A stretch of 58,851 nucleotides of DNA from the NCBI GenBank assembly GCA_903844635.1, contig CAIMUF010000054.1, positions 1-58,851 on the forward strand. Reading direction: 5' to 3'. The stretch comes from an uncultured Sulfuricurvum sp. Its GTDB lineage: Bacteria > Campylobacterota > Campylobacteria > Campylobacterales > Sulfurimonadaceae. This document shows positions 42,801 to 57,944 of this stretch, piece after piece; positions within the stretch are counted from its first letter, which is position 1; the number at the start of each line of letters is the position of its first letter. The notes below the pieces were generated by a model. That model was not told the DNA's origin. It searched no databases and was given only the letters and a program-made list of their open reading frames with translations. The position numbers were made by a program, and so were the translations under genes.

Positions 42801-45800
42801 CTATTGGGTTAACGGTCAATGCGGGTACAGGAGTTGATATCATCATTGTCGATTCGACTAAAACGTACACCATTGATGGGGGAAATGCTGAAAACAATAC
42901 ACTTAAACTTTCAAATCAGCTTACTACCAGTGAAACAGGTTCGGCAACGGTTATAGGAAATGTGAATTACAGTTCTGTAACTACCGTTCAACTTGCGGAT
43001 GGCGGAAATACGGTTGCGTTTGATTTGTACAGTGGTAGCGGAACCAATATCTCTCTCCTTGGAGGGATGGGTAACGATGTATTCAAATATGCTATTGCAG
43101 GTATGGCGGGCGATTCTCTTTTAGGTGGAGCAGGTAATGATACGCTATTCTTTACCGATTCTGGGACGATTGTTCAAGCAAGCCTCAGTGGCGTGGATAC
43201 CTCAACGGCAAACAAAATCGAAGTGATACAATTCGCAGATGGAGTTAATGCCATCACCGTCGATAAAGATGGAATATTATTGCAAGGTGGAAATAACGCA
43301 GACACCTTTAATTATGCGGTTGGAAGTTTGACTATTGGAGATACTATCGATGGCGGAAGCGGAACGGATATTTTGGCTCTTAGCGGTGGTGCAGTTACGG
43401 ATGTGCAATTTACCAACCTCTCATCGATTGAGACCCTAAACCTCACTGCTATTACAGCAGGTTCATCGGTTACACTGGGTACTGAGGCTGCTGGGGCAGG
43501 ACTGATAGCGGTAAATGGCAATACGGGTGGTATGACACTGGATGTACAAAACTTCGGTAACTCTTCATTGGGTATTGCACTGGGAGCCTCAAATGATACG
43601 CTTCTTGTTGCTTCGACGCAAACTCTCGTTACTGCTGTAGGAGGTGCTACTGGTACCGATACGCTTAAAGTGGTAGGAAGTGGTGTAGCAATCGGAGATG
43701 CACTTCTTGCGAACAAAACAGGTTTTGAGGTGTTGGATGTTGCGAGTTTGAGTACCAATTCAACGGTTACTCTCGTCTCAGCCGCTTCAGGATTTACCTC
43801 TATTTCCGAGAGTAGCGGAACCAATCAGCAAACCATCGATGTAAGCGGATATCTGGGAACACTTTCATCCGGCATTGCATTGACGAGTGCAGGTGCGGCT
43901 GGGGATACAGTCAAAGTTCTTTCTACCCAAAATATTGCTATTGCAGGGGGATCTGCAACAAACGATACACTTCAAATTACCAATCAAATAAGCAGTGGTG
44001 GAATCTCGGCAACAGGTTTAGGTGGTATCGAAAAAATTCAGCTTGGTGACTTTACAAATAGTGTTACGATGAACTATGATAATAAGACTTTCATTGGTGG
44101 AAGTGCTGATGATACGTTCCAATACTCTGTAGGCACTTTCTCTACGACCGATAGTCTCAATGGAGGAACTGCCGGTACAGATACGCTTCTGTTCTCAGAT
44201 GCTTCAACTTCTATCAGCGGTGCAAACTTTGGTTCCAACCTTACCGGTATTGATATTATTCAACTGGCCAATGGAGTCAATACGGTTTCGAGCTATGCGT
44301 ATACTGCGGGAACTCTCATAGGTGGAAATGGTGTCGACACGATTACGGTAACCGCGGGTACCAATGGAGCGAAAATCAACACGGGAACGGGTGTTGATAT
44401 CGTCAATGTCTCAAATGTGACAGATCTTAATAATACAACGATCAATGGTGGTGACTCACTCGATAAAGTGGTTATAACCACAACAAGTGGTGGGATTATA
44501 ACGGCTGCCAATATCACTAATATTGCAGAGATCGACTTAGCAAGCGGCGGCAGCGCATACACAATCAATACAGCTACCTCTATCGTCGGTTCTACTGGAA
44601 ATGACAGTATTATTGGCGGTGCAAGTGTTAACAATACCATCAGTGCAGGATTAGGGGATGACACTGTCGAGTTTGATATTGCCAATTTAGATGCCTCAGA
44701 TAAAGTATGGGGTGGAAATGTAGGCAACGATACCCTTAAAATTACTGGGACTGGTAACTTAGGTGATGCGATACTTGCAAACATTAGAGAATTTGAAGTC
44801 TTAGATGTCACAAGTTTGGTAGGTAATGTCACCTTAGCGGGTAACGCTACAACAGCAGGTATCACTTCCATTACGGATACAAATGGAGCTTCAAGCGCAA
44901 AAATTATCGATGTTACACTTAATACTTCGGTGACAAGTATCACTGCGGCTGGCGGAGCAGATACGATCAAAATCAATGGTAGTTCGGTGACAACGGTTAA
45001 TACAGGTGGAGGTGATGATACTATCAATGCAACCAGTACTCAAAGCGTTAGCATTGATGGTGGAACTGGCATCAATACTCTCAATATTCAAAACACAGGT
45101 ACGATCAGCGCCATAAATGCAACGTTGAATAGTATTCAAAAAATACAGTTTGCCGATGCGACAAATGACATAACTGTGAACAAAGATAATATTTCACTCA
45201 TCGGTGGAATAGGTAATGATACCTTTAATTATAACGCTACCGATTTGAGTGGAACAGACTATGTCGATGGTGGGAGTGGTGCAGGTGTTGATACCCTCAA
45301 AATCACAGGAAATGCAGCCCTTATTGATAGTCAATTCGCTCACGTTGTTAATATCGAGAAACTGGATCTTACCGGATATACAAATGGCGGTGTTACATTA
45401 TCTACAAATGCCGATAACAATACAACTCTTGAAGTGCTCTTGGGCACAACGGCGACAACGGTAGATGCTATTGGCTTTACTGGAAATATTACGATTACAG
45501 GTAATGCAACAGCAACAGATGATACGATAAAACTCAACAGCAGTGACTTTACCTCTGGCGATCACATTGCTGCTGATGGGGGAAATGATACTCTAGTCCT
45601 AAGCGGAAGTACCAATTTTGTAAGTACGGATTTCGCAAACGTGAGTGGAATTGAGACATTGGATATGAGTACCTTTGCCGGTACAACCGTGACGATGTTT
45701 GCCGATGCCAGCGGGAAATTTAATACCTATACAAGCTCCAACTTAGCAATGACAATCGATGCAAGTGCAATTGCAGGGGGAACATTCAATCTTGGTACTG

Positions 45801-47779
45801 GAAATGACAACTTTACCGTAGGCAGCGGCACTTCTACCGTAAATGCCAATACGGGAGTCAATACGGTCAGCATAAACAGTGCAAATCTTGACAGTACGGA
45901 TGTTATCACTTCAGGTGTAGGTATTACGGATACCCTTGTTGTAACAGGCAGTACCGCTTTGAGTACTTCTAATTTTGGGACAATCACTGGTTTTGAAAAA
46001 CTCGATTTGAGTGGATATTTCAATAATATTACCGTTGATAGTACACTCGCGGCTAAGTTCACAACCTTTACGACCAAATCGGGACAAACGCTAACGATTG
46101 ATATTGCTGACATCAGTGGAAAAACTATCGATGGTGCAGGTGATGTCGTGATTACTATGGGTGCAACGTCTTCACAATCATTGGCAGCCATTACTGCTAC
46201 AGGCACACAAACCTTGAAATTTACAGCAGATGCCACCTATACTGGGGCATCTATTGGCAGTGTTGATGTCATCGACGTTGCAAGTTCAACCACAGCAACA
46301 TTAAACGCGTCGCTTATTAGTGCAAAAACATTGACCTTTAGCGGCAGTGGCAATATGACTATTAATGCAGACAACACGGCTGCCAACAATAATTTTGGTT
46401 CTATTACCGATTCGATTTCAGGTACGGTTTCGCTTAATTATTCAGGGGGAACTGCACTTGATTTGAGTGGCACTAATATTGGAACAACGCTTGTGAATAC
46501 TTTTAATACTTCGAGCGCAACAGTTACCTTATCTGCTGCACAAGCTGGAAACATTACTTCCATCACCGGAAATGGCAGTTTGAGTGTAACCGGAGCTCTT
46601 GGAGCAGATTTGAATCTTGTTACAAAAGGATATACCGGTAACGTAACGATTGCAGATGCAAACGGACACAATGTAACCCTAGGCAATGGGACAAATCATA
46701 TTACGGACAACACAACGACTGCGAACGTCATTACGGGTGGAACGGGAAGTGATACTGTTCATGTGACAAGCTCTGTCGATGTGAGCGCTAAAACATTCAG
46801 TGGGATTGAAACACTTGCTCTTGGAGCAAATAGTGTCATCATAGATTCAGCAGATGCTGCTGCAATTTCTACGTCAATCACTGGAAATGGTAACTTAAGT
46901 GTAACCGGAGCATTGGGTGCGAACCTTGACTTGTCTGTAACCGGTAAAAACTACACAGGTAACGTAACGATTGTGAACGCAAACGGTCATGATGTTACCC
47001 TCGGCGTAGGGAGTGACAACATTACGAATACCATAGCTGGCGGAACATTAGATGCCGGTGCTGGAAATGACACCTATAATGTTTCAGTCGCCACAAATAT
47101 TGCTGATACAGGCGATATTGACATCCTTAATACTACCGCTACAATGGATTTAAGTGGAAAAGTTTCCGGCATTGAGACTCTCAATGTCGCATTCGGAACC
47201 ACTACCACTCTAAATTATGGTGATATAGGCACAAGTGGTATATCGATACTTTCCGGTTTAGGATCTGTAAGTATCCATGGTACTACAACTATGGATATTC
47301 ACACAGAAACAGTATCTTTGGGGGCAGATAAGCTAGGTATTACTGGCACAGCATTTGCAGACAGTCTCGTTCTTGATTTTAGCCAGCTTAGTAAAATTCA
47401 GTTTGATGGCGGGACAGGAACTGATACCGTCTCTTTCTTTGGTACTAATGCAGCTACTTTAAATGATTTGAACGCATTTACCAATATCGAAAAACTTGAT
47501 ATTCATTCTTTAGGTCTATCAGGAGGAGGACTTGCAATTGATGCTAATTCACTGTATGCCTTTACCGGTACAAATGCAGGTTTTTCCTTTGAGTTGGATG
47601 CAGCTGCAACTGATTTAAGTAACAGTAAGCTTTCTATTGATGGGTTAACTTCATGGAAGGTTGATGGTGGTACAGTTAATACTGGAAGTAGCTTTATATT
47701 ATCAGCTGGTGATGCCCATCACTATTCATTAACAACCAGTACAAATACAATAACTGACTTATATGTACACGCACTTTAG
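30869..47779 (+). CDS. Giant type-I-secreted RTX repeat adhesin
   Basis: A 5,636-aa surface or secreted protein, start GTG after AGAAGGATATTCC. Parts: an N-terminal domain without signal peptide (1-120); a Ser/Thr-rich linker (120-235); a beta-sandwich-like domain (235-430); a huge RTX block (about 435-3075) of GGxGxDxxxG nonapeptides that bind calcium, interspersed with TANYDG-type loops; and a second block (3075-5550) of longer beta repeats with little RTX (pattern F-x-N-xx-xx-E-x-L-x-L, TLGTxAxxAGI, TIDVxG, about 110-160 aa). No cysteine was seen. The C-terminus (DLYVHAL, after HHYSLTTSTNTITD) should be the uncleaved type I secretion signal. The exporter follows after 7 bases. It is not a toxin by sequence: no catalytic domain or acylation site was found. 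Ligand unknown. Likely role is adhesion or biofilm matrix. Confidence 0.85.
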   Translation: MANESHLSYGKNTIPLKTAPLAGENLNIYLRPGDELKSSIDLSKAQYQIVGTDVVATLPNGGKITFVSLGMMVFEDNPPIIKLPNDDRLLVTDILNKVQNISQASKDSILTSGDVILQSDEKSDSAASPKKSDEPVVDYNAYYVDPQPNIKPQDEIGPKDNVGKYLTESPSFTSNETSSATSTQNYSSSETQSHSKDNIADVSAALSFDIGFYQIKSSDSTATVASVTTTTVLGGTGSALGNVSKLASAQFEPETIDYRNNPNVQVITADDPTYVTETYLTKLVRMSISQPIGFGITDVAITGLGSGFQILNSNGTSANAMGGGWDLVPGTGFTAIATDGGEIIEFYVKYEPANVTVNTDYLMQVNLTSIFDMNNVPLLMQPGVVVPILNTLTSVKDVGVIVKTVESVSDYTYTGQYSSGYVLDTTPNENIIFTGKLDSTVHGGLSSDTISGNIGNDILDGAKGNDTLSGGTGDNTLIGGLGIDTASYEFITKYSEDFLFANNGVNNDPLTGLPYTNNSKGVVVDLFAGTGTGKSVYDATTDALTGEETRTISDTLNGIEYVIGSKYDDTLSGDGAANKLMGGEGNDTLDGRSGADYLDGGAGNDRLIGSTDDFMIDGGDNTDTVDFSDNSNGIEVALNNSSNGTIINIGGAGATTTKIKNVENVAGSHFKDIITGDNADNLLIGGSTTITSRSGDDTISGGSGADVIVGDMQVASTIGSGLYGGDDLLSGGVGNDIIWGDSAPVLSTSVLVVDANQMSETIVDTNPISHVVTTLSTVVGGNDTLMGGAGDDYLNGGSGFDTVDYTSSLSSVSVDLSTNRAFGDGNDRIFNIENIIGTSNGDTLTGNNLVNTIVAGEGNDTLSGQGGNDTLDGGLDSDWADYSYSSGVIVDLSTTLGTATVTGGGDTDTLVSIENVIGSSGNDTMTVGSGTNTLLGNNGNDYFYALGSGDTIDGGNGSDSVDYGSLTNDITINLGTGASDDRLISIENIYATAYNDSLVGSSDANILDGKVGADTLRGMSGNDTLYGGTGNDILDGGDNDDTLYGGDNNDTLIGGFGTDILDGGLGQNTADYSGVGIGSINVDLSTGIASDGQGAYDTLSNIQIVKGSSSADIMKGSSSADTLIGGNGNDTFLASGGSDTYYGNTGSTPDSYSDKIDYSALGTVNNIFVDLSSASSVNPGLVQLRDNTNATLSTDSLYSVEEVYGTSGKDTMIGGVGLNTLYGGAGDDTLTGTLDGDVLDGASGINLADYHTSADSLTVNLTPTSQNVYKTSDIPTSTNSDTLKNIQNVTTGSGNDTLTGNSANNVLNGGSGNDTADYSTSITSINANLTTGQVVGSATGTDTLVNIENIIGTAQSDIIRGDTNANSLMGLGGNDTIYGGLDGDHIDGGAANEKNTLNYSGLGATTIDLEAEQAHLTASSVVDTITNIQDVIAGSNNDILIGKVGMVNTLFGGDGNDTFTGNMDGDLLDGDIGTADMADYSSNTAKVVDIYAQKIALSISDLSLVTKYDTFTNIEIINTGNANDQFTLTGSSDSNHLTLNGGGGSNTVDYGGLSIGNIVTDLSTVVGGYSTVTVNGSTGDDYIANIKNITGSQNGDTITGDATTNVLHGNGGHDKLDGGAGNDTVYGDTGNDTIIGTIDNTVDYYDGGADSDTIDYSAVTTALALSNGTTVTGGGVGTDTLANIEIFKSGFGSDILSGGTSAMTIYGYDGVDAITGGSGDDLIYGGSSWSATGTTDNVSNVLDGGAGNDKIYAGSAGDTLRGGLGNDTLYGGAGIDTAEYSVAMSATLNTSLVNADGLDVLDIDTIEILRAGIGADVITGADTGILATIYAGAGNDILNGGAINETLYGEVGNDTLRGGDGIDILYAGDGNDLIYGAILTAGRDVIYGGNGTLADSAGSDTLDFSDNTNIAISIVVDMSTQSGVTTAGTAKISGNTVATFYQIENITGGSGADQITGDANANSLNGGGGSDTIFVSNGADAIDGGVGTDTMDFSSRATAVNVNLAMLQILNNGNSEAQTIQNIENLIGGSVGDTLYGDGVTNTIQGGLGADTLKGGDGNDVLYATDTTFAGDGAVSNTLYGEAGNDTLFGAAGADILDGGLGNDTLDGKEGSDILIGGGGNDTIGDSGVAGNDTLSYAGSSKIITAFALSDGTIEITDGTVLDATVTLNSEDQTNVGIDTLSATHGIEMILGSGLSDKFFTQTYRPINEAFTLDGGSGNDTIYGGALNDVVYGGANDDTIRGYGGNNILAGGSDTVTGSGTDTLDYSFDTQGVKVNLTSGFASYDAVAQNRGVHVTDVGISGYIGGTDEVYNFYRVLGGSGTDTIAGNLLTDSINGGAGDDWIVMTTGNDYIDGGTNADFIDYNFIAGSVIVDLSGSVGTGSAGTDDIRNIENVSGSASADTITGNSGVNTLIGRLGNDTISSGAGNDLIYGDNNNANSALNEASDTESGSDNLYGGAGSDTIYGGLGDDYIEGDSGGDVPTGFTNTLYGGGGNDNFGLYNGNDIVYGGSGTDTANYWNSGGIVARLDATYDIGGIKFGTITQGGTTDYISLADVENLSGSGYGDTIYGSSLISSVLRTINGGNGNDFIQGNSAIIAEYIDGGENDDTIEGGGGADTLYGGGGTDLFYGAIDGDTIYGGETNETAGGDTVNFIHVTGTPLEIIMNNNAQGSVKVGGIAQSYFYEIENIVGTNSNDTIVGDIQGNALSGGAGDDTLAGGAGNDAIDGGANTNGAGGGDWIDFTIDGVADAVNGITIDLGNKLQQWISATRGSDTVANIENVKGTANADTIWGDSTGNYAAGSVHTILGMAGDDSIVLRGGNNSIDGGSGIDTVSYSNENGVTLTLVGGGGTATVGSYSDILTTIENIIGSDNNNTALAKDTITGDANANRIVGMRGDDTLDGGAGNDSIEGNSDNDTIYGGAGTDTIDGGAGNDMLYVNTNTLTDSVANTIYGGSGADNIFGSLSGNTLYGDMSAGVSSGQGDVLRYDLLNTGVHVNLSTTTMTAVGWDGTADVLAATDTIGGFTNVRGSGFADKFEGTTGSESIYGGAGNDIFVGNGGADSLYGESGDDSFIFTTVAQMQAAALINGGASSEINSVTLTSHTGNEIITTANMSYIQQLQLAGGSTSLATYTANTNNISILGTTGADYIIGGVGFTNTISGGGGDDVVVFAVGDLLGDIVDGGAHATADTLKITGASSMTDVQFTNVSNFEVLDLSGYSGTSITLGTEANGALGSTGVVNLATTYAAGTSVVVDVSGYGNGLTVNGGTGSDDVIVSIGQILTVNGSTGTADILEFKDAGTISSLSATISGIEQIKFSSLGANNITLDANTLSDAPTLVGGANSDTFNYSITNLTAADKIDGGAGVDTLSLLNAGIIDNTANAVFGGMTNVEIIQLKDSLGVHNTLTMGTMNGTINGGNQGDVYNYTLADLTSADTIFAGTGTDTLAISGGGVFTDSTVMTNLHSIETLNLNGFTGTNATLTSTAGNAGITTVDATTKASSLDLTIASFSNPISVTTSAGSNDVIRTSTNYMANQVLNAGVGSNDTLSMSSGSDVTDAMLANKTNFEVFDISALNANTTITMGANANAAGFTTVQDTSANAKTIDVHGDARTLAVNAGTGVDTIIVNNAAQNAVINGGATGINTLSFYNSLTGGQAGSAGVIGNVTFSNIQKIQLANTGNDVTFDASAMGVTLIGGSGIDIFRYAAANFTAFDTIDGGNGNDTLLYTTNSNAITGADFTNLTSIETLQLADGGNTVSAYNYTYGTLVGGSGVDAISITSGASSVKIDGAAGNDVFTFANATDMTNATTIIGNSGTDTVVVNGTTDITAASFAKLATVETVNISALNANATLGTAAQIEGIVTVTDTGSFVKTIDASTFGNNILAINANGGSDVNDTVILDSAQTTVSVNLGSSTGDTLSLSGATTVTDSFFSNKQGIETLNLTNGTMSNVTLGTNANTTGIKTVTDAGSNAKTIDVSGDAIGLTVNAGTGVDIIIVDSTKTYTIDGGNAENNTLKLSNQLTTSETGSATVIGNVNYSSVTTVQLADGGNTVAFDLYSGSGTNISLLGGMGNDVFKYAIAGMAGDSLLGGAGNDTLFFTDSGTIVQASLSGVDTSTANKIEVIQFADGVNAITVDKDGILLQGGNNADTFNYAVGSLTIGDTIDGGSGTDILALSGGAVTDVQFTNLSSIETLNLTAITAGSSVTLGTEAAGAGLIAVNGNTGGMTLDVQNFGNSSLGIALGASNDTLLVASTQTLVTAVGGATGTDTLKVVGSGVAIGDALLANKTGFEVLDVASLSTNSTVTLVSAASGFTSISESSGTNQQTIDVSGYLGTLSSGIALTSAGAAGDTVKVLSTQNIAIAGGSATNDTLQITNQISSGGISATGLGGIEKIQLGDFTNSVTMNYDNKTFIGGSADDTFQYSVGTFSTTDSLNGGTAGTDTLLFSDASTSISGANFGSNLTGIDIIQLANGVNTVSSYAYTAGTLIGGNGVDTITVTAGTNGAKINTGTGVDIVNVSNVTDLNNTTINGGDSLDKVVITTTSGGIITAANITNIAEIDLASGGSAYTINTATSIVGSTGNDSIIGGASVNNTISAGLGDDTVEFDIANLDASDKVWGGNVGNDTLKITGTGNLGDAILANIREFEVLDVTSLVGNVTLAGNATTAGITSITDTNGASSAKIIDVTLNTSVTSITAAGGADTIKINGSSVTTVNTGGGDDTINATSTQSVSIDGGTGINTLNIQNTGTISAINATLNSIQKIQFADATNDITVNKDNISLIGGIGNDTFNYNATDLSGTDYVDGGSGAGVDTLKITGNAALIDSQFAHVVNIEKLDLTGYTNGGVTLSTNADNNTTLEVLLGTTATTVDAIGFTGNITITGNATATDDTIKLNSSDFTSGDHIAADGGNDTLVLSGSTNFVSTDFANVSGIETLDMSTFAGTTVTMFADASGKFNTYTSSNLAMTIDASAIAGGTFNLGTGNDNFTVGSGTSTVNANTGVNTVSINSANLDSTDVITSGVGITDTLVVTGSTALSTSNFGTITGFEKLDLSGYFNNITVDSTLAAKFTTFTTKSGQTLTIDIADISGKTIDGAGDVVITMGATSSQSLAAITATGTQTLKFTADATYTGASIGSVDVIDVASSTTATLNASLISAKTLTFSGSGNMTINADNTAANNNFGSITDSISGTVSLNYSGGTALDLSGTNIGTTLVNTFNTSSATVTLSAAQAGNITSITGNGSLSVTGALGADLNLVTKGYTGNVTIADANGHNVTLGNGTNHITDNTTTANVITGGTGSDTVHVTSSVDVSAKTFSGIETLALGANSVIIDSADAAAISTSITGNGNLSVTGALGANLDLSVTGKNYTGNVTIVNANGHDVTLGVGSDNITNTIAGGTLDAGAGNDTYNVSVATNIADTGDIDILNTTATMDLSGKVSGIETLNVAFGTTTTLNYGDIGTSGISILSGLGSVSIHGTTTMDIHTETVSLGADKLGITGTAFADSLVLDFSQLSKIQFDGGTGTDTVSFFGTNAATLNDLNAFTNIEKLDIHSLGLSGGGLAIDANSLYAFTGTNAGFSFELDAAATDLSNSKLSIDGLTSWKVDGGTVNTGSSFILSAGDAHHYSLTTSTNTITDLYVHAL
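32171..40095 (+). repeat. RTX calcium-binding repeat block
   Basis: The first two-thirds of the adhesin's repeats: dozens of GGxGNDTLxGG-type nonapeptides, often in pairs or triplets separated by VDLSTG-like strands and NIENIIGTxxxDTLTGN connectors. Known to fold only in the high external calcium, which aids one-way export. A 22-base exact direct duplication lies at 34184-34205 and 34211-34232. Confidence 0.85.
40096..47500 (+). repeat. Second beta-repeat block of the adhesin
   Basis: Divergent repeats of about 110-160 residues around the motif DTLxxxG...TDxxFxN...ExLDLS...TLGTxAxxAG...TIDV. RTX motifs are sparse. The last two units (about 46555-46700 and 46870-47030) are recent duplicates: both encode LSVTGALGA...YTGNVTI.ANGH.VTLG. 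Confidence 0.75.
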
Positions 47780-47786
47780 GATTTAA

Positions 47787-49904
47787 ATGGAACAACTACT
47801 CGAAACAACTCACTCTAAGCACGATAGACTCCTGCTCTCGTTCAAATACATCCTCGATTTTTACAATGGGGATGTGGAACTTAAAACGATTACGACCATC
47901 TTGGCACATACGAAACAGCATTTAGAGATTGAAGATCTTAAAAATGGCTCGATAGATTTTGGTCTTAATTTTGAACATGCAGAGATTTCTGCGGATATTA
48001 TTTATTCGCATATTTTTCCCTGCATTGTTATGAAAAAGAATGCAAAAGCAACAGTGCTCCTCGCATTGGAGGGAGATACAGTACAGCTGCTGGATGTGGT
48101 CAGCGGTGAAAAAAGTACCTATTCGGTGGCACAGCTAGTAAGCGAGTTTGATACAATTCTTTATTTTTACAAAGATTTGACACCTAAAAATATTTTGACT
48201 CATGATGAAAAAGGGAAAGAATGGTTTTGGAAACATCTTGTAGAAGCTAAACCGGATATTATAAAAGTCAGTATTTTGACCATATTTATCAATGTATTCA
48301 TCTTATTGGTCCCTTTGTATGCGATGAATGTGTACAACCGAGTTATCCCAAATTTTGCGACTGAAACCCTTTTTGTTTTGACCTTGGGGGTTGTTTTTAT
48401 CTTTATTTTTGATGCTTTGTTCAAGATGGTACGAATCTACATTCTTGAAAATATGGGTCGCCGTATCGGCAGTACCCTCGAAGAAGAACTGCTAAAGAGA
48501 TTGTTGCTGATTCAAAGTCAGCATGACCATCTTCTTGCCGGTTCAAAAGCAAATTTGTTTAAAGAAATCGCCCAAGTGCGGGACTTTTTTATGTCAAAGA
48601 GTATTGCGTATGCCCTTGATTTACCTTTTGTCTTTCTGACCCTTTTGGTTATTTATCTGATCTCTCCTTCTGTGGCAATTGTTGTCTTTTTATGTGGTAT
48701 CGCTATTATTGTGGTCAATGTGGTTTTACAAATGCCGATTTTTTCGTTGAGCAGAAAACTGTTTCATGATGGACAAATGAAACACAACTATCTTTTTGAG
48801 ACGATTAAAGGGATAGAGACGCTAAAGCTTACCAATGCAGTCTCAAAACGATTGCATAAATGGAGACAGCTCGTCAATTTTTATAATTACATTAATCTTA
48901 AAATACAAATGTATACCAATCTAGCCACCAATATTTCATACACGATTATGCAGCTTGCAACCGTGTTAACCCTTGTTGTGGGAGTCTATCAGGTACAAGA
49001 AAAAAATCTCACCATCGGAGCACTCGTAGCGCTTGGACTTCTTGTAGGTAGAGCAATGGTCCCTATCGTCAATATTTCCAATCTTTTGAGCAAATACAAA
49101 GAGTTTAAAGAGTCATTGGACTCACTCAATAAATTTTGGCACATGCCATTAGAAACTCAAAAACCAATCGATATCGGGATTAAAAAACTTCAAGGGCATA
49201 TCGAGTTCAATAACGTCTCTTTTACCTACGCTGGGACAAAACAGCCTTCGATTACCAGTGCTAATTTCAAGATTAAAGCCGGAGAGAAAGTTGGATTTAT
49301 AGGACCTACGGGAGCAGGTAAAAGTACGGTTCTACGCCTTTTAACAGGGCTTGATACTCCAAATAGTGGAAGTATTTTTATCGACGGACATGAAATAAAT
49401 ACCATACATCCCGTAGAGCTTCGAGATAACATCGGTATCATGCCGCAAGAGCCTTTTTTATTCGACGGTACGTTAAAAGACAACATTGAAATCGGCAAAA
49501 ATATTGGTAAAGATATGCTTATTAAACTTTTAACGATGACAGGACTCGAAGAGCTGGTTAAACGCTCAGGCGAGGGTGAAAACTTCCAAGTGGGAGAAGG
49601 CGGATCGAGGTTGTCCGTTGGTCAGCGCCATCTTGTCGGACTTGCCCGCTCTCTTATCAATGATCCATCTATTTTGATTTTGGATGAACCGACCACGGGT
49701 ATGGATGTCGGTCTTGAAAAAGAGATGATTAAACACCTTAAACCTATTGTGGAGGCTAAAACTTTGATTCTTATTACCCATCGTTTTGCTGCATTGGAAT
49801 TGGTCGATCGTGTATTAGTGGTTAACAATGGTCGCATCGTAGCAGACGGACCGCGAGATGATATTCTCAAACAACTTCAAACCCAAACTGGTAGTAAATC
49901 ATGA
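47787..49904 (+). CDS. Type I secretion ABC transporter (LapB/RtxB/SiiF-type)
   Basis: A 705-aa inner-membrane exporter. Residues 1-140 form a C39-like domain lacking the catalytic cysteine (LLLSFKYILDFYNGD in its place), which in HlyB-like systems holds the unfolded substrate. Six membrane helices follow (about 160-440), then the nucleotide-binding domain: Walker A GPTGAGKS (506-513), signature LSVGQ (609-613), Walker B ILDEP (631-635) and the H-loop ITHRF. It begins 7 bases after the adhesin, and its stop overlaps the HlyD gene start (ATGATGA), so all three belong together. Confidence 0.94.
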   Translation: MEQLLETTHSKHDRLLLSFKYILDFYNGDVELKTITTILAHTKQHLEIEDLKNGSIDFGLNFEHAEISADIIYSHIFPCIVMKKNAKATVLLALEGDTVQLLDVVSGEKSTYSVAQLVSEFDTILYFYKDLTPKNILTHDEKGKEWFWKHLVEAKPDIIKVSILTIFINVFILLVPLYAMNVYNRVIPNFATETLFVLTLGVVFIFIFDALFKMVRIYILENMGRRIGSTLEEELLKRLLLIQSQHDHLLAGSKANLFKEIAQVRDFFMSKSIAYALDLPFVFLTLLVIYLISPSVAIVVFLCGIAIIVVNVVLQMPIFSLSRKLFHDGQMKHNYLFETIKGIETLKLTNAVSKRLHKWRQLVNFYNYINLKIQMYTNLATNISYTIMQLATVLTLVVGVYQVQEKNLTIGALVALGLLVGRAMVPIVNISNLLSKYKEFKESLDSLNKFWHMPLETQKPIDIGIKKLQGHIEFNNVSFTYAGTKQPSITSANFKIKAGEKVGFIGPTGAGKSTVLRLLTGLDTPNSGSIFIDGHEINTIHPVELRDNIGIMPQEPFLFDGTLKDNIEIGKNIGKDMLIKLLTMTGLEELVKRSGEGENFQVGEGGSRLSVGQRHLVGLARSLINDPSILILDEPTTGMDVGLEKEMIKHLKPIVEAKTLILITHRFAALELVDRVLVVNNGRIVADGPRDDILKQLQTQTGSKS

Positions 49905-51172
49905 TGAATAAAATGGCACTTGAAAAACGGTGGAACTACTATATTACGGTTGTTCCCATCGGACTGTTCATTCTTGTCACCTTGATTTGGGCTACTTTTT
50001 CTGAGATTGATGAAGTGGTTCGTGGAGAAGGTAAAGTTATCCCATCAGGGCAAACAAAAGTTTTACAACATATGGAAGGGGGAATCGTAGCTGAGATACT
50101 GGTGAATGAAGGAGATACCGTTTCTGTAAATCAACCTATTTATCGATTGGAACAAGCCTCATTCACAGCCGATTTAAATGAAAAAGGGCTTGAAAAAGTA
50201 GCTTTGCAAGCAAAACAACAGAGGCTTGAAAGTCTTACTTACGATAAAAATCTTGTATATTCGCCTGAATTTATGCAACAATATCCTCAGATTGTTAGTA
50301 ATGAGATGCAAATTTATCACAGTGAAAAACTCAACAATTCCGATCGCCTTAACAGTGCATTGCAAAAAGTAGAGCAAAAGAAATATGAGATTCAAGACTT
50401 AGAGGCAAAACTGAGAGATTTGACATCCGAATTGGACGTTGAAACAGAAAATGCATCTATTGCCGAGCAGTTGATGAAATCAGGTGCCGGCTCGAAAAAA
50501 GAGTATTTGGCAGAGAAGAGTAAAAAACAAAACCTAATCACACAGCTCAATAGTATTAAAAATCAAATTCCGGTTGCCAGAGGAAAAGCTAAAGAAGGAT
50601 TGTTTGAAGTAAGCTCTATTAAGTCAGAAATTAAATCAAAAGCGTTGAATGAACTTCAAGATATTCGACTTAAACTGAGCCAGACATTTCAGCAAAGTGA
50701 GGCTAGTGGAGACCGAACAAAAAGACTCTTGATTACGTCACCTGTAAAGGGCATAGTCAATAAACTTTATTATTACACAATTGGCGGTGCGATCAAAGCA
50801 GGGGATAAAGTGGCTGAAATCACTCCTTTGGAAAGTGGATTTATGATTGACGCTAACATAAGGGCTTTAGATCGAGGTCGAATATGGATGGGGCAAAAAG
50901 TTAACATTGAAATAACGGCGTACGATTACGCTAAATATGGGAAAATAGAGGGACAGCTTGTTTCCATCAGTCCCGATAGTTACACCAATCAAAAAGGTGA
51001 AATTTTATATGCGGTTAAAGTCAAAGCGTATAAAGATAATCTAGGTGAAAACCTTCCTATTATGCCGGGAATGGAGGCAGTGGTTAATATTGTCACTGGG
51101 AAAAGAACGGTTTTAAGCTACCTCTTTTTACCAATCAAGCGTATGGGTAAGAATTCGATGCTTGAGCCATAA
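49901..51172 (+). CDS. Type I secretion membrane-fusion protein (HlyD/LapC/SiiD)
   Basis: A 423-aa periplasmic adaptor. It has one N-terminal membrane helix (about 15-35, VVPIGLFILVTLIWATFS), followed by the biotinyl-lipoyl half motif VIPSGQTKVLQHMEGGIVAE, a long coiled-coil hairpin (about 105-245) and a second lipoyl/beta-barrel segment (TSPVKGIVNKLYYYTIGG). The C-terminal part (AYDYAKYGKIEGQLVSISPD) is the typical HlyD barrel ending. It bridges the ABC exporter and TolC-type channel encoded at 54475. Confidence 0.93.
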   Translation: MMNKMALEKRWNYYITVVPIGLFILVTLIWATFSEIDEVVRGEGKVIPSGQTKVLQHMEGGIVAEILVNEGDTVSVNQPIYRLEQASFTADLNEKGLEKVALQAKQQRLESLTYDKNLVYSPEFMQQYPQIVSNEMQIYHSEKLNNSDRLNSALQKVEQKKYEIQDLEAKLRDLTSELDVETENASIAEQLMKSGAGSKKEYLAEKSKKQNLITQLNSIKNQIPVARGKAKEGLFEVSSIKSEIKSKALNELQDIRLKLSQTFQQSEASGDRTKRLLITSPVKGIVNKLYYYTIGGAIKAGDKVAEITPLESGFMIDANIRALDRGRIWMGQKVNIEITAYDYAKYGKIEGQLVSISPDSYTNQKGEILYAVKVKAYKDNLGENLPIMPGMEAVVNIVTGKRTVLSYLFLPIKRMGKNSMLEP

Positions 51173-51216: not shown

Positions 51217-52182
51217 ATGTTTGCGTTGATACTAAAATTTCAAGCTATTATGGAAAAACTTAAACAAAATAAACGTCTCTGGTTTACAACAATTACGGTT
51301 CTTGCTTTTTTAGGAATAGCAGGAACGCTTCATTACTTAAACACAACGACAGAAAGATCTGCCCATAACTTATATGAAGCCACTAGTGGCACTTATTTTC
51401 AAGAGCTCGATTCAAAATTACTAGCAGCACAACAAGAAGTGACTATTTTAGGTGCTGCTTTGATGGACAATCAGCTCTTTTTTGGCGCAATTGCCAATGG
51501 TGCAAATACGGCAGGAAATAATGTAAAATTAAAACAAATTGCTGATAATATCAATGCAATAAGTAAAAATCAAATTGCATTAGAGTTGTATGATAAAAAT
51601 AGTATCAAAATCGCATCTTCCATTGAAAATATGAAACTAACGGCTACTGCTTATGATTCAAAAGGGCTTCGTAGTGCTATCAGTACTAATACATTTACGA
51701 GTGCAATTGAATATCAAGATGGACAAGTATATGTGAGAGTGTTTTTTCCTTTTGCTAACGGAGTTCTTGAAATTAAAAAATCAGTTGACTTTTTAATTGA
51801 CGAATATGCTGAGAGTGGAAAAATATTTCAAGTTATTCTAGATAAAGACTTTCTCGATATGAAGAGAGTACAAGAGTTTACGTATAAAAAAATTGGTAAG
51901 TCTCAAATTAGTGTGCAAACTAAAAGCAACGATGAGTTTTTAGACTATTTAGCGAAAGTAGATTTTGATCAACTTATCCTTGATAAATACATGCTTGCAG
52001 ATGGTTATTTCATTATGAGTAAACCTATCTTGGATATAGAAGGTAAAAGAATAGGGATTTTCCTAATAGGGGAAGATACTTTAAAAGAAAACAGTCTCCC
52101 TAAAATGACCAAAAGTATCTCAACCGGGATTACTACTGCAGCGATGGGCTTGGTTGTTTCCTTGCTTATTTTGATGATTTAG
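51217..52182 (+). CDS. Membrane protein with extracytoplasmic Cache-like domain, no output domain
   Basis: A 321-aa protein with a helix at about 20-38 (LWFTTITVLAFLGIAGTL) and another at the very C-terminus (about 302-321, TTAAMGLVVSLLILMI). The 260 residues between resemble the periplasmic double-Cache sensor of chemoreceptors: a long helix (ERSAHNLYEATSGTYFQELD), then YDKNSIKIASSIEN and YVRVFFPFANGVLEI strands. A normal chemoreceptor or kinase would continue after the second helix; this one stops there. So a ligand-binding domain without signalling part sits inside the secretion operon. The ATG follows AAGGAATTTTGA. I infer sensing or a structural role near the motor pair that follows. Confidence 0.65.
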   Translation: MFALILKFQAIMEKLKQNKRLWFTTITVLAFLGIAGTLHYLNTTTERSAHNLYEATSGTYFQELDSKLLAAQQEVTILGAALMDNQLFFGAIANGANTAGNNVKLKQIADNINAISKNQIALELYDKNSIKIASSIENMKLTATAYDSKGLRSAISTNTFTSAIEYQDGQVYVRVFFPFANGVLEIKKSVDFLIDEYAESGKIFQVILDKDFLDMKRVQEFTYKKIGKSQISVQTKSNDEFLDYLAKVDFDQLILDKYMLADGYFIMSKPILDIEGKRIGIFLIGEDTLKENSLPKMTKSISTGITTAAMGLVVSLLILMI

Positions 52183-52203: not shown

Positions 52204-53769
52204 ATGAAACGAATTAAAGTACATAAAGCCTATTTTATCACTTGGTTATTTATCTTATATGTAGTGTACGCTAATGCAGAATTATTAAGCAATTTTTTTA
52301 TGGCTACAGTCATATTCAGTTCTGCCATTGTTGGATTTTTAGCCGTTGGAACGCTGTATCAGTTTGTCAGCGGTTTTGATATCATGATGCTAGGCGGTAC
52401 GTTTGGAGCACTTGCGTATAAACGTACCGGATATGAGTTTTACATTAGAAGTATTAATTCAATCCTGCCAGCTAATATCGCACATATGCTGCAAAGCAGA
52501 AAAGATCAGCAGCAAATGCTGTTTACTGAAGATGAATCTCGAGATATTATTGATTGGTTAGAACACAAGTTTTCCAAACAAAAATCGTATATAAATTTTT
52601 TCATCAATACTTCTATGCTTATTGGTCTTTTAGGGACATTCGTAGGTTTGGTTGAATCCATCGATAAAATGGGACAAATCATTTTGAGTCTCAATGGTGA
52701 GGTTCCGATTTCTGAAATTATGCAACAATTTTCAGGTCCTCTTTCGGGAATGGCGATCGGATTTGGAGCATCACTTTTTGGTGTTGTTACCGCTGTTATT
52801 TTAGGACTCAATGGATACATCTTGTTTCGATACCAAGATACGCTCATTAGTGGAGTGGAAGAGTGGCTTAAAGACAGAATTATTGATATAGCTCCAAAAG
52901 ACATTGATGATTCAATGTCATCAGCAGGTTCTGAGTTGACAGGACATCGAAAAAATTTCATGGATGTTTATCTAGATCAGCTTTCTATGCTTACGACAGA
53001 AATTACTAAATATTCGAGTGGAAATGAGAATATGTCTTCTATGGCGACTTCTCTAAGCTCTATAGAATCAATTTTAGATGAGCAAAAAACATATATGAAA
53101 TCCATGCTTCAACTGCAAGAAAATACCCAATCACGATACGAAACATTATCCTCAGCTGTTATTGATTTGTATGGATTAACAAATAACCGTTTGGAAGAGA
53201 ATAAATTTGCTTTGGATGCTATTTCAGAAGTTAATTACAAGCTTTTAGAGCAAAATAATCAGAAAATGAATCTTATTAATAACAATCTCTCTGATATTGG
53301 AATTCAACTTGGAACTAAAATAGATCAAGTGAATGTATTGCAACAGCAGGACACTCAAGCAAGCAATCAAAATGCTTCATTGCTTTTGGCGACCATGAAA
53401 GAAGCATCCAATGCTTTAGAAGAAAATAAACGCTCAACTAAATCGCTCTTAAAACTGAAAGAAGGTTCTGTAGCAAAAGATCTTGCTTTCCAGTCTAACT
53501 CCATTAGCCTTTTAGAAACAATCGATTCGGGCGTTTATGCAAATAAAGAAATTGCTAGTCGTATTTTTGAAGATGCTAGAGTGCTTAAAGTAGACCGTTC
53601 CAGTACAATAGAAGAAGGATTTAAACTCATCAACGCTCTTATTGAACATTCAAATAAACAAACAAATACGTTGAAAAAAATTGAAGAAAATTTGAGTAGT
53701 AAAGGTAACTCAAACACTAATAATGGTCAAAAAAAAGGTATCTTTTCCTCTTTTTTTAGACAAAATTAA
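52204..53769 (+). CDS. MotA/TolQ/ExbB-type channel protein with coiled-coil tail
   Basis: A 521-aa inner-membrane protein. Helices lie at about 10-24, 28-50, 132-155 and 185-207. LIGLLGTFVGLVESIDKMG (139-157) and PLSGMAIGFGASLFGVVTAV (179-198) match the conserved third and fourth helices of the MotA/TolQ/ExbB proton-channel family. Residues about 240-510 are long coiled coil (repeated TTEITKYSSG, NNRLEENKFALDAI, NNNLSDIGIQL), expected in the cytoplasm. Known related arrangements: SiiB of Salmonella SPI-4 beside a giant adhesin exporter, and ZorA, which has a long cytoplasmic tail. With the next gene (D18 in its helix) it probably forms an ion-driven motor. Which ion it uses is unknown. Confidence 0.78.
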   Translation: MKRIKVHKAYFITWLFILYVVYANAELLSNFFMATVIFSSAIVGFLAVGTLYQFVSGFDIMMLGGTFGALAYKRTGYEFYIRSINSILPANIAHMLQSRKDQQQMLFTEDESRDIIDWLEHKFSKQKSYINFFINTSMLIGLLGTFVGLVESIDKMGQIILSLNGEVPISEIMQQFSGPLSGMAIGFGASLFGVVTAVILGLNGYILFRYQDTLISGVEEWLKDRIIDIAPKDIDDSMSSAGSELTGHRKNFMDVYLDQLSMLTTEITKYSSGNENMSSMATSLSSIESILDEQKTYMKSMLQLQENTQSRYETLSSAVIDLYGLTNNRLEENKFALDAISEVNYKLLEQNNQKMNLINNNLSDIGIQLGTKIDQVNVLQQQDTQASNQNASLLLATMKEASNALEENKRSTKSLLKLKEGSVAKDLAFQSNSISLLETIDSGVYANKEIASRIFEDARVLKVDRSSTIEEGFKLINALIEHSNKQTNTLKKIEENLSSKGNSNTNNGQKKGIFSSFFRQN

Positions 53770-53788
53770 TGAATGACGGGAGAGCGTA

Positions 53789-54463
53789 ATGGCTGGTGGT
53801 GGCGATAGTAATGAAATGAATCCGTTCATTTCTTATGTCGATTTATTTGCTTCAATCATCATGGTATTACTTTTGTTTATTCTTATTTTATTCGTTAATG
53901 TTGGTTATTATTTACAATTTAATTCAAAAGATAAAACAGAAGAAAAAATTCCTGATATTCAGCAAGAAAAAAGTCAAGCAGAAATGGTTATTACAGCATC
54001 AAAAAAAGAAGATAAGAAAGAAATGGAAAAAGCAAAAGCCATTCAGTTGTTTATTCCAAAAGAAACAAATAATACGACTCCGGTACAAGGGGGAGAAGTA
54101 GAAGGAAATACACTCAGTAAACAATCTGAAACGTATGCATTAGCCGACTTTAAAGAACAAGATTTGGTTATCTCCTTTAAAAATAATGAATATTTTTTAT
54201 CCAAAGAAATTATTGCACAAGTAACAGCCTTTATGGAAAATATACTAACGAAAAATCCTAATGCTCTCTTTTATATTAGCGTTAATGATTCTAAAAAAAT
54301 AATAAGCTCGACACAAACAAAACAAGTCTCATTAGGTAGAATCTTGAGTATTAAAAATGCTTTGGAAAAAGACCCTGCACTTAAAAATAGAATCAAGCTG
54401 AACTATCAGCAAGCAGAATCATTGAATTATGAATTCGGTCACTTAAAAATTGATGTAAAATAA
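53789..54463 (+). CDS. MotB/TolR/SiiA-like partner of the channel protein
   Basis: A 224-aa single-helix protein. The N-terminus reads NPFISYVDLFASIIMVLLL, with Asp18 at the cytoplasmic start of the helix (about 17-39), the position of the proton-carrying Asp in MotB and TolR. A charged linker (45-115) leads to a periplasmic domain (about 118-224) with the outline of OmpA/MotB (FKNNEYFLSKEIIAQVTAF, then SLGRILSIKNALEKDPALKN), though the usual peptidoglycan-binding residues are not clearly kept. It is 19 bases after the channel gene. Together they match SiiAB/MotAB-type motors. Confidence 0.75.
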   Translation: MAGGGDSNEMNPFISYVDLFASIIMVLLLFILILFVNVGYYLQFNSKDKTEEKIPDIQQEKSQAEMVITASKKEDKKEMEKAKAIQLFIPKETNNTTPVQGGEVEGNTLSKQSETYALADFKEQDLVISFKNNEYFLSKEIIAQVTAFMENILTKNPNALFYISVNDSKKIISSTQTKQVSLGRILSIKNALEKDPALKNRIKLNYQQAESLNYEFGHLKIDVK

Positions 54464-54474: not shown

Positions 54475-55899
54475 ATGATTTTGAATGCATCTAAGTATTT
54501 GACTTTAGCCGTTCTTTGCGCAGAACTTTTTTCCAATGTTTTGAATGCTGACAGCTTACCTGTAGGACTTAAATCACCACCTAGTTTGGTCATTAGCAGT
54601 GGGAAAAGTGTTGATATGAATAATACACTCGAAGCTAATGTATCAGCGGCAGCAGGTGCAATCGTTATGCCAATATCTAATGCAAACAATGTGACACTAA
54701 AAAGTATTGTTGTCTCTTCAATTGATTCCAATTATCGGGTAAAACAAGCACAGGAGCGGGTTAAGCAAGCTGATTCATTCATTCGTGAGGCTGTTGCTGA
54801 TTTTCTTCCTCAGGTTTCTCTTACGTCGGATATGATGCGTAAAAAATATGAAGGGTTTGAACCGCAAGATTACGCTCAAAGTTCATACGGGTTTACGACT
54901 AGCTATAATGTATTTTCTTCAGGAAAGCATTGGGTTGGTATTGAAAAAAATAAAATTCTGAAAAAAGAGCAAGAAGAAAAGCTAAAAGGTACAAAAGAAG
55001 AAGAGATCAATAAAATCATTGATGCCTATTTTAGTGTTGTATATGGAAAACTTTCCATGGATGCAAATAAAAAGAATTATGAAAAATTATTCAAAATTTT
55101 CGAAATCGTTAAAACGAAACGAGAATTAGGTGCTGCGACAATGGGAGATGAGAGTTCTATTTCAGCCAGTGTTTCAAATGCAAAAACGGCAATGACGAAT
55201 ACCGAATCAGCCTATAATAATGCAAAAGATTATTATGAGTTTTTGACGGATAAAAAAGTAGCTGAGGCTACTCCTTATGAGCTTGGGTTTGACATTAATC
55301 TTGAGAGTATCGAGGCCATTGTTGATAAGATGCAAAGTGGCAATACGGATATTAATGTGATTAAAACACAGATTAATGCAAAGCAAAAAGAAATTTATAT
55401 TAATAAAGCTAGTGACTGGCCAACCATAGACTTGTCGTTTACGGATACGAAACGCTCTCGCTATGATTTTAATCAGCAAGCAGATGGTGATAATAATGAC
55501 CTGTGGTTTCAGTTGACTTTAAACTACACCCTCTATACAGGTGGTAAAACGGAAGCTAAGACTGCACGTTTGATGAGTGAAGCTTCCGAAAGAGGTTACA
55601 ATCTTGAATATACCTCTAAAGATTTAAAGTGGAATACTCAAAAATTATACAATTCAGTACAAACCAATACCAATACGCTAAAAACATTGCAGGATGAAAT
55701 CGTATCCAGTGAAAAAATGGCAGATGCATATTGGGAGCGTTTCCGACTTTCAAGCCAAGACTTAGTGACATTATTGCAAGCTCAACGGCAAGTAAACAGT
55801 GCTGAGCTTGAAAAATTGCGAAGCGAAAAGACTCGGATAATTGATTATTTTAATTTGCTGACCAAGCAAGGAAAATTATTAGAGTATTTTGAATTTTGA
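54475..55899 (+). CDS. TolC-family outer-membrane channel
   Basis: A 474-aa outer-membrane efflux protein. Sec signal (ASKYLTLAVLCAELFSNVLNA), then two OEP halves with the long alpha-helical hairpins of TolC: VKQAQERVKQADSFIREAVADF and QKEIYINKASDWPTIDL-type segments, and in the second half KTLQDEIVSSEKMADAYWERF and LVTLLQAQRQVNSAELEKL. It provides the outer-membrane exit for the adhesin, completing the tripartite exporter with the 47787 and 49901 products. Confidence 0.92.
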   Translation: MILNASKYLTLAVLCAELFSNVLNADSLPVGLKSPPSLVISSGKSVDMNNTLEANVSAAAGAIVMPISNANNVTLKSIVVSSIDSNYRVKQAQERVKQADSFIREAVADFLPQVSLTSDMMRKKYEGFEPQDYAQSSYGFTTSYNVFSSGKHWVGIEKNKILKKEQEEKLKGTKEEEINKIIDAYFSVVYGKLSMDANKKNYEKLFKIFEIVKTKRELGAATMGDESSISASVSNAKTAMTNTESAYNNAKDYYEFLTDKKVAEATPYELGFDINLESIEAIVDKMQSGNTDINVIKTQINAKQKEIYINKASDWPTIDLSFTDTKRSRYDFNQQADGDNNDLWFQLTLNYTLYTGGKTEAKTARLMSEASERGYNLEYTSKDLKWNTQKLYNSVQTNTNTLKTLQDEIVSSEKMADAYWERFRLSSQDLVTLLQAQRQVNSAELEKLRSEKTRIIDYFNLLTKQGKLLEYFEF

Positions 55900-55923: not shown

Positions 55924-56172
55924 ATGTCTAAAATAGTTTTTTTATTCTTGCTTGCAAGCAGTTGTCTTTTAGCTCTTGGCAGTGATAATAATGCCACAAA
56001 AAAAGGTCAAAATATAAGAGAAAAAGCTCTTTTTATGAATAAAGATCATTATCAAAAAATTCTGAAAAAAGTAGATGATGATAAAAAGAAACAAAAAAAA
56101 GAGATGAAAATTTATAAGCGTAAAGATGGATCGATTGATACGTTAAAAACAATATATGAGGCAAATCATTGA
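55924..56172 (+). CDS. Small secreted highly charged protein
   Basis: An 82-aa protein with a hydrophobic signal (MSKIVFLFLLASSCLLALG) and a Lys-rich helical mature part (HYQKILKKVDDDKKKQKKEM, KIYKRKDGSIDTLKTIYEAN). I do not recognise it. The cysteine at 14 has no strict lipobox (LASSC), so lipidation is doubtful. Ribosome site GGAGGTGTTAC. It sits between tolC and the TPR gene with an overlap to the latter, so it is part of the adhesin operon; a helper or chaperone for export is only a guess. Confidence 0.65.
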   Translation: MSKIVFLFLLASSCLLALGSDNNATKKGQNIREKALFMNKDHYQKILKKVDDDKKKQKKEMKIYKRKDGSIDTLKTIYEANH

Positions 56173-57944
56173 ACCTAAAGGATAAAAATCACACACCGTT
56201 ACTTCTCAGTGGTGATTTATTTTTAAAAGATTCCCAAAATGATGAAGCCATAGCTTGCTACATCAAAGCAAGCACTTTGGAAGATATTAAAACATGGGAA
56301 AAGGATGTTCTTTTACGTTTTTATAATAATCTTGGAGTTGCTTATAAGCGAAAAGGAAACTTTCTTCAAGCTCAAAGATTGTTTGAGCAAGGTATATTGA
56401 CAGAACCTTTATACTCTTTTTTTTATTTTAATCTTTATACTATTTATAAAGATCAAAATCGAATGGAGAGTGCTGAGAAACTTTTATTAAAAGCAATTTC
56501 TTTGCGTATTAACGACATTCGATGCTATGTTGCCTTGATCGAGTTATATCAAGAAAAAAGATATTTGAAAAAAGCTCTAGAAGTAGCGATTATCTGTGCA
56601 AATCAGTTTAAAGAAGAGTATAAATCTCATTTGCTGGTTGGTAATTGTTTTACAGCTCTTAAGCTGTATAAAAATGCCATTGAGCCATATTTAAATGCAA
56701 TAAAAATCAATCCAAAAATTACCTCGTCATATAATAATATTGGTGTTGCATACAAAGAACTTGAAGAGTATGATAACGCTAAAGCTATGTATGAAAAAGT
56801 ATTAGCCTTAAATCCAAATGATCCTGCTGTCCATAATAATTTAGGGAATTTGTTACGGAATTTGGAAGATTTTAAGGGTGCAGTGTCACATCTGGAAGCG
56901 TCGATAAAAATTAATCCTACCTATGCGGATGCGTACAGTAATTTAGGCGCCGTGTATAAAGAGCAAAAAATGTACGATAAAGCAGAGGGTTATTATCGTA
57001 AAGCATTGGAATTAAGTCCAAACCATACCAATGCAAACTTTGATTTTGCATTGATTGAGCTTACAAAAGGAAATTATCAAAATGGATGGAGACGATACGA
57101 GCACCGTCTTAAAATGGATGAGCTTGTAGCTAAAGTTTATTTTTATACAACACCTATGTGGAGAGGTGAATCACTTGATGGAAAGACCATTATTTTACAA
57201 AATGAGCAGGGATTTGGAGATAACATTATGTTTATCCGATATGTTCCTATGTTTGTGAAATTAGGGGCAAAGGTCATTGTTCGAACACGTTTGGAATTAG
57301 TTGACCTTTTTAAATCTATCGAGGGTGTAGATGCTGTAATCAGCGAAGAAGATGCAATACCTTCGCATGACTATTATCTTCCTCTCCTATCGGCTCCTTC
57401 ACGTTTTGTGACAACTCTTGAGACGATACCAAGCACTTTCCCATATTTAGTGCCAAATAAACAAAAAATTGGTGTTAAATTGTCTAAAGATGCTCTCAAT
57501 ATCGGATTAGTATGGAGCAGCAGTCGAACCAATAAGGATTTTAAAAACAAATACATTGGGCTTGAATATTTTAAAGATCTTTTCACGCTAAAAGGGACTA
57601 AGTGGTATTCGCTTCAAGTAGGAGACGACGCCACTGAAATCAAATCGGAAAAATTAGAAGCTAAGATAACGGATTTGTCTAAATATTTGGTTGATTTTTC
57701 AGCTACGGCAAATATGATTGCAAATTTGGATATTGTAATCACTACGGATACTTCTGTGGCTCATTTATGTGGCGCAATGAATAAAGAAGCCTGGGTCTTA
57801 GTTCCAAACCCATCAGACTGGAGATGGATGCAAGAAGGAAATACTACACCTTGGTATAAAAGTTTAAAATTATTTCGTCAAAATAAAACAGGATCTTGGG
57901 AGAGTGTTATTTCTGAAATAAAAAAATCTTTACAAGAAAGATAA
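56169..57944 (+). CDS. TPR protein with glycosyltransferase-B-like domain
   Basis: A 591-aa cytoplasmic protein starting at TTG (overlap TTGA with the upstream stop). Residues 1-300 contain about eight tetratricopeptide repeats (for example NNIGVAYKELEEYDNAKAMY, YSNLGAVYKEQKMYDKAEGY). Residues 305-591 resemble the GT9/GT41-like fold: NGWRRYEHR, IILQNEQGFGDNIMFIRYVP, LSAPSRFVTTL, IGLVWSSSRTNKD, then ITTDTSVAHLCGAM and NPSDWRWMQEG. Such TPR-glycosyltransferases modify proteins or make glycans. As the last gene of an adhesin operon it could glycosylate the adhesin before export, as with other giant adhesins; that is inference. The donor sugar is unknown. Confidence 0.8.
   Translation: MNLKDKNHTPLLLSGDLFLKDSQNDEAIACYIKASTLEDIKTWEKDVLLRFYNNLGVAYKRKGNFLQAQRLFEQGILTEPLYSFFYFNLYTIYKDQNRMESAEKLLLKAISLRINDIRCYVALIELYQEKRYLKKALEVAIICANQFKEEYKSHLLVGNCFTALKLYKNAIEPYLNAIKINPKITSSYNNIGVAYKELEEYDNAKAMYEKVLALNPNDPAVHNNLGNLLRNLEDFKGAVSHLEASIKINPTYADAYSNLGAVYKEQKMYDKAEGYYRKALELSPNHTNANFDFALIELTKGNYQNGWRRYEHRLKMDELVAKVYFYTTPMWRGESLDGKTIILQNEQGFGDNIMFIRYVPMFVKLGAKVIVRTRLELVDLFKSIEGVDAVISEEDAIPSHDYYLPLLSAPSRFVTTLETIPSTFPYLVPNKQKIGVKLSKDALNIGLVWSSSRTNKDFKNKYIGLEYFKDLFTLKGTKWYSLQVGDDATEIKSEKLEAKITDLSKYLVDFSATANMIANLDIVITTDTSVAHLCGAMNKEAWVLVPNPSDWRWMQEGNTTPWYKSLKLFRQNKTGSWESVISEIKKSLQER

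Follow-up and report, generated by a model that had tools for sequence, protein, structure and literature searches.

The presence of a MotA/MotB-like gene pair among the secretion genes of a giant adhesin raises the question of which kind of motor this pair forms and what it does for the adhesin. The window, meaning here the whole stretch of DNA analysed, is the forward strand of contig CAIMUF010000054.1 of a Sulfuricurvum sp. and has 58,851 nt. The gene set begins with a giant RTX-type adhesin of 5636 aa (30869-47779), a probable T1SS substrate with GGxGxDxL-type repeats, whose first ~116 residues (30869-31216) make up a conserved N-terminal domain, AdhN, recognized in an alignment of 16 sequences. 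Directly 3' of it lies the gene of a T1SS ABC transporter with a C39-like N-terminal domain (47787-49904), which matches the Peptidase_C39, ABC_membrane and ABC_tran models of Pfam and scores 685 bits against TIGR03375, slightly below the cut-off of 693.1. It is followed by a membrane fusion protein of the HlyD family (49901-51172; TIGR01843, 321 bits, above the cut-off of 208.65), a truncated chemoreceptor-type sensor (51217-52182), a MotA/SiiB-like pentamer-type subunit of 521 aa (52204-53769), a MotB/SiiA-like subunit of 224 aa (53789-54463) and a TolC-family outer-membrane channel (54475-55899), which matches OEP (1.1e-32) and reaches 123 bits with TIGR01844, below the cut-off of 225.15. 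The last two genes encode a small Lys-rich protein of 82 aa with an N-terminal hydrophobic stretch (55924-56172), also found 3' of TolC in the closest relatives, and a TPR protein (56169-57944), which matches TPR families, has a glycosyltransferase-9-like C-terminal part (Glyco_transf_9 E 0.03, under the cut-off) and is kept across the sub-clade of the window. That one of these two proteins glycosylates the adhesin is a guess. All genes from the adhesin to the TPR protein are on the + strand with intergenic gaps of at most 45 bases, so that a single operon is likely. Homologous adhesins adjoin the motor cassette in many relatives. Elsewhere in the genome there are four MotA/ExbB-type genes, one of which is the flagellar MotA beside the flagellar MotB.

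The first-pass annotation had described the pair at 52204-54463 as keeping the channel helices and the membrane aspartate, with some 270 residues of coiled coil on the MotA-like protein and an eroded OmpA-type domain on its partner, and all these features are found. The MotA-like protein passes the Pfam MotA_ExbB cut-off (24.0 bits against 22.9), and its AF2 model, of moderate confidence (mean pLDDT 69), has four membrane-type helices followed by continuous helices at residues 252-442 and 448-501. The cytoplasmic tail of ~270 aa (52954-53769) has a heptad periodicity above that of all 500 shuffles. The same periodicity is present in 12 of 14 Campylobacterota tails with p<0.005, in the remaining two with values of 0.008 and 0.030, and in the SiiB tail with p<0.002. 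The sequence of the tail is unconserved, and the total length of the protein ranges from 371 to 855 aa across relatives with an intact N-terminus. Thr145 (52636-52638) and Ser190 (52771-52773) do not vary in any of the 46 sequences and are common to SiiB; they are positioned as is the polar ring in other 5:2 motors.

AF2 models the MotB-like protein as a TM helix (residues 13-46), a linker of low confidence (47-115) and, at residues 117-223 (54137-54457), an alpha/beta domain with block pLDDT mostly 73-92. Asp18 (53840-53842), the putative ion-carrying aspartate in NPxxxxVD, is invariant in the 46 sequences covering that position, and fusions to unrelated channels do not occur among the homologues. 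The Pfam scan of this protein returns no OmpA match and nothing else significant, and the Asp of the canonical HTD motif is unconserved in the family; nonetheless, 45 of 45 sequences retain the Arg of the LSxxRA motif (Arg184), which aligns with Arg167 of SiiA. The position of SiiA Arg162 is occupied by Gln179, with Lys178 alongside. Arg162 and Arg167 are the peptidoglycan-binding arginines of SiiA, of which Arg162 is important for invasion.

The assignment of the pair as a SiiAB-type motor, corresponding in Campylobacterota to SiiB and SiiA of Salmonella, is well supported. In a Foldseek search of the whole PDB with the MotB-like domain, SiiA (6qvp) ranks first with a TM-score of 0.82 by target, and VIA-align also places SiiA on top with a Z of 13.0, followed by an entry at 10.5; searching the PDB by sequence alone was uninformative. 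The MotB profile scores SiiA at 45.2 bits, the rhizobial PRK09039 protein at 17.5 and the flagellar MotB of the same genome at 1.3, while the MotA profile scores a rhizobial MotA/TolQ/ExbB protein at 57.7 bits, SiiB at 37.7 and the flagellar MotA of the same genome at 5.0. The MotA profile thus favours the rhizobial protein over SiiB, and Sii is singled out by the MotB side only. Foldseek with the MotA-like model returns ExbB, ZorA, TolQ and MotA alike at similarly weak scores, so this model cannot choose between families. Profile-profile alignment by hhalign gives E 4.2e-12 for the MotB-like protein with SiiA and E 1.6e-10 for the MotA-like protein with SiiB. The comparison of the Asp18 region with SiiA, proposed earlier as a check, reveals a motif EfNPWPxFVDxFS common to the MotB-like family and SiiA, in which Asp18 aligns with Asp13 of SiiA. 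N11, P12, V17 and D18 of the window protein are identical to SiiA, and at position 13, where the window protein has F, 36 of 46 relatives have W. In the MotA core, all eleven positions compared are identical to SiiB.

The rhizobial protein with the top MotA-profile score of those tested comes from S. meliloti (L099, 11917-14054) and is the best match to the MotA core outside Campylobacterota. It lies outside any T1SS adhesin operon, and its PRK09039 peptidoglycan-binding partner, unlike the MotB-like protein, has a long insert as well as an OmpA domain of canonical type. The SiiB reference came from a tblastn search of plasmid records with the MotA-like protein, in which a Salmonella fragment labelled as plasmid was found. 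This 4.3-kb record (NZ_CP130079.1) is a fragment of SPI-4 with siiA, siiB and siiC, probably a mislabelled chromosomal piece. No siiAB-like DNA was found in E. coli.

In Salmonella, SiiAB is an inner-membrane proton channel that controls the retention of the adhesin SiiE, which is lowered by uncoupling and raised by acidification (PMC6272769, PMC12607715). Secretion of SiiE itself is independent of SiiAB, as SiiE still reaches the medium without them, and SiiB binds SiiF, the T1SS ABC protein, in two-hybrid assays (PMC12607715). SiiA is built from a TM segment (14-38), a disordered linker (51-92) and a domain at 93-210 (PMC12607715). The MotB-like protein shares with it the fold, the motif, the TM aspartate, the disordered linker and the equivalent of Arg167, and has Gln179 in place of Arg162. 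The MotA-like protein resembles SiiB in its core, where the key residues are identical, and in its heptad-periodic tail, which is ~230 aa long in SiiB and widely variable in length in the Campylobacterota motor. As in SPI-4, the motor genes are encoded alongside a giant adhesin and its T1SS. Still, the locus is not SPI-4 in the strict sense (SiiA-F): the adhesin is of RTX type, whereas SiiE is of BIg type; the gene order is MotA-MotB, whereas in SPI-4 it is reversed (siiA-siiB); the truncated dCache sensor gene is present in addition; and the hosts range across Campylobacterota.

The pair is no product of chance: within the order, the MotA-like protein was found in 14 of 150 genomes and the MotB-like protein in 15 of 150. 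An alignment of the MotA core, scanned against 84,980 GTDB species genomes, yields 45 distinct loci, every one in Campylobacterota, a limit which may reflect that the scan patterns favour close relatives. At each of these loci the two motor genes stand side by side, with T1SS or adhesin genes nearby. No relative was found in viral contigs or phages, and a phage or virus origin was rejected. The 121-kb plasmid CP146529 of an Arcobacter sp. carries the whole set (1-22393 of the region analysed), with an 8555-aa adhesin, ABC, HlyD, sensor, motor pair, TolC and an EAL protein, so the unit is capable of moving; in the annotation of this plasmid, the ABC gene appears as two ORFs. The set is also carried by Sulfurospirillum cavolei.

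The motor is tied to one type of adhesin. It is present in 21 of 200 genomes of the order and AdhN in 22, with 20 in common (Fisher p 3e-24, kinship ignored); the exceptions, one genome with the motor only and two with AdhN only, are fragmented assemblies, and fragmentation of MAGs limits some of these co-occurrence calls. In four of the shared genomes AdhN is encoded away from the motor, either on a different contig or at a distance of 40 kb, so the link goes beyond physical proximity. A charged, helical-looking stretch then follows AdhN in many relatives, which by analogy recalls the N-terminus of SiiE, a beta-sheet/coiled-coil region that governs its retention (PMC6272769).

Control of giant T1SS adhesins at the cell surface is also the task of the LapD/LapG system, which works by a protease and c-di-GMP. 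The LapG-type site [TPAS]A[AS]G was found in 0 of 31 relatives within the first 250 aa of the N-terminus of the motor-linked adhesins, and LapG, present in 46 of 200 genomes, overlaps with only 10 of the 21 motor genomes and is missing from the other 11. In the genome of the window, LapG adjoins another adhesin: contig C35 (2-6177 of the region analysed) carries a second giant adhesin, directly behind which come genes for LapG (Peptidase_C93) and for a LapD-like GGDEF/EAL protein. LapA/LapG/LapD control of the motor-linked adhesin was rejected on these grounds. Judging by its genes, the genome of the window holds two different adhesin-control systems.

The first-pass annotation had missed the AdhN link and also the gene immediately before the motor pair, which encodes the truncated chemoreceptor-type sensor. 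This protein is composed of TM1, a dCache_3-like periplasmic domain and TM2, after which it stops, leaving it without a cytoplasmic output domain. The dCache_3 domain is detected in 9 of 14 orthologs (best E 2e-7), and all 43 full-length orthologs stop at the end of TM2, whereas dCache relatives in the same order run 300-500 residues past TM2 in chemoreceptor-like fashion (judged by eye). Conservation among the orthologs peaks in TM2, with an entropy of 0.95 bits versus 2.05 for the sensor region (subsamples of 16), while the conservation is reversed in 16 receptor relatives, with 2.14 bits for TM2 versus 1.58 for the sensor region. Since TM2 is the most conserved part of a protein without cytoplasmic part, its partner is most likely within the membrane. 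TM2 weakly matches Pfam MotA_ExbB in 3 of 14 orthologs (best E 0.004), a match which suggests helix mimicry and is too weak to use.

Sensor orthologs (at least 209 bits; best non-ortholog 115) are present in exactly the 21 of 200 genomes that have the motor. Among the 45 loci, the gene is seen wherever the contig is long enough, usually immediately upstream of the motor but in some cases at the opposite end of the operon, beside the adhesin. A dCache gene is absent from SPI-4, which leaves the role of the sensor without precedent. A possible parallel is the partnership of FliL with the flagellar stator (PMC6426602), in which a membrane protein that has a periplasmic domain acts on a MotAB-type motor. 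FliL differs from the dCache partner in having a single TM segment and a stomatin-like domain.

Taken with the operon context, the homology to SiiAB makes a role in adhesin retention or release the most likely one here too. It is likely that the pair is a PMF-driven SiiAB-type 5:2 motor which sets the retention or release of the AdhN-class adhesin, with the sensor as its probable gate. In this motor, five MotA-like chains would ring two MotB-like chains in the inner membrane, and Asp18 would pass ions between the ring residues Thr145 and Ser190. The flexibly tethered SiiA-type periplasmic domain may contact peptidoglycan or the adhesin/exporter, while the coiled-coil tail would reach into the cytoplasm to the T1SS ABC protein, as expected from SiiB and SiiF. 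The motor would recognize the giant adhesin through AdhN, and the proton (or sodium) gradient would drive the choice between holding the adhesin in the exporter and letting it go. The truncated dCache sensor would read a periplasmic ligand and, because it has no cytoplasmic part, act on the motor inside the membrane via TM2. The gene set, the SiiAB homology, the ion site, the tail, the co-occurrence and the reversed conservation of the sensor are supported by computation on sequences and models; the 5:2 stoichiometry, the ion flow, the retention role, the gating of the motor by the sensor, the contact of the tail with the ABC protein and the direction of force are inferences. A more specific form of this mechanism is put forward tentatively: a chemosensor-gated ion motor in which TM2 of the truncated chemoreceptor sets hold or release by periplasmic ligand, without kinase, c-di-GMP or protease.

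The earlier suggestion that force is passed into the cytoplasm, perhaps to the ABC exporter, is plausible by analogy because SiiB binds SiiF (PMC12607715), but the truncated receptor and the AdhN link speak no less for adhesin retention controlled by a sensed signal than for the ABC protein as target. Taken further, this suggestion leads to a motor that powers or aids export itself, in which the PMF moves a chain of >500 kDa and the tail pushes the ABC protein. The closeness of the motor genes to the ABC and HlyD genes in the window and the SiiB-SiiF interaction fit such a role, and export of so long a chain could benefit from extra energy. This is nevertheless unlikely, as Salmonella SiiE reaches the medium without SiiAB and many giant adhesins, including the second one of this genome with its LapG/LapD-like genes, are exported without such a motor. 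Alternatively, the pair could be a mechanosensor or load sensor, a channel that reports adhesin tension, is tuned by the sensor protein and produces no useful force. The weak peptidoglycan signature, the long flexible tether and the dedicated AdhN link are consistent with this, and sensing of the cell state has been raised for SiiAB (PMC6272769); it is, however, quite unlikely in view of the 5:2 ion-path residues, all of which, where checked, are strictly kept as in force-producing relatives.

The annotation had also held that the pair recalls ZorA/ZorB and SiiB/SiiA more than flagellar stators. The Sii part of this claim stands by fold, profile score, motif and operon context, and the Zorya part holds only for a shared TM3-TM4 core and the possession of a tail, in the absence of the Zorya partner genes. 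ZorA and ZorB have a MotAB-like core, a long cytoplasmic tail on ZorA and a conserved Asp required for function (PMC11890865), and a Zorya-like anti-phage motor could lie in the adhesin operon by chance. With the PADLOC ZorA/ZorB models and NCBIfam scans, the MotA-like protein matches ZorA3 models at 28.5 bits over residues 139-204 only, and the MotB-like protein matches ZorB1 weakly, at 16.1 bits, over residues 7-62 only. SiiB itself matches the ZorA models in the same manner, and the best ZorA-model matches in the order, with up to 62 bits, resembled other tailed MotA-like proteins. No ZorC, ZorD or ZorE-type effector gene is found among the five neighbours scanned, and the neighbours at 45 of 45 loci are adhesin or T1SS genes. 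A chance placement of this kind is therefore very improbable, and membership in Zorya was rejected, the matches being limited to the core with no full-length similarity to the ZorA/ZorB models. That the pair is a second flagellar stator would agree with the aspartate and the MotA/MotB fold, but this can practically be dismissed: the genome encodes its own flagellar MotA/MotB elsewhere, with 5.0/1.3 bits against 37.7/45.2 for SiiB/SiiA, and the operon is that of a T1SS. Flagellar MotAB membership is thus ruled out by profile scores and context.

The SiiAB-type reading links a motor and a cut-down sensor to one type of giant adhesin across sulfur-oxidizing and related Campylobacterota, whose grip on surfaces may be under bacterial control through this set. 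In the literature searched, SiiAB is treated in passing or for Salmonella only, as part of a single island. The motor is a member of SiiAB; what is new here is the conserved truncated-receptor subunit and the strict tie to one adhesin domain. This second, wider SiiAB lineage of free-living hosts indicates as essential parts the ion path, the SiiA-type domain, the tail and AdhN. The truncated receptor may be the missing input to SiiAB-type adhesin control, and the occurrence of a receptor with a membrane helix as its sole conserved output in exactly the motor-bearing genomes makes ligand gating of a 5:2 motor testable. For relatives of Sulfurimonas, Sulfuricurvum, Sulfurospirillum and Arcobacter, it would be a means of adhesin control besides LapD/LapG.

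Some loci vary in their accessory genes. On the contig of locus L036, the T1SS ABC gene of L055 (5054-7080) is split into three ORFs, which may be a sequencing error or a decayed copy. Six loci of Arcobacter/Sulfurimonas type (L042, L062, L066, L073, L076 and L094) have a longer TolC, followed by a protein of 710-720 aa. At L042 (2991-8101) these two proteins carry SPOR and GGDEF-EAL domains, and behind them lie a small lipoprotein-like gene and the gene of a Sel1 protein, an arrangement that is perhaps a c-di-GMP input to the same adhesin system.
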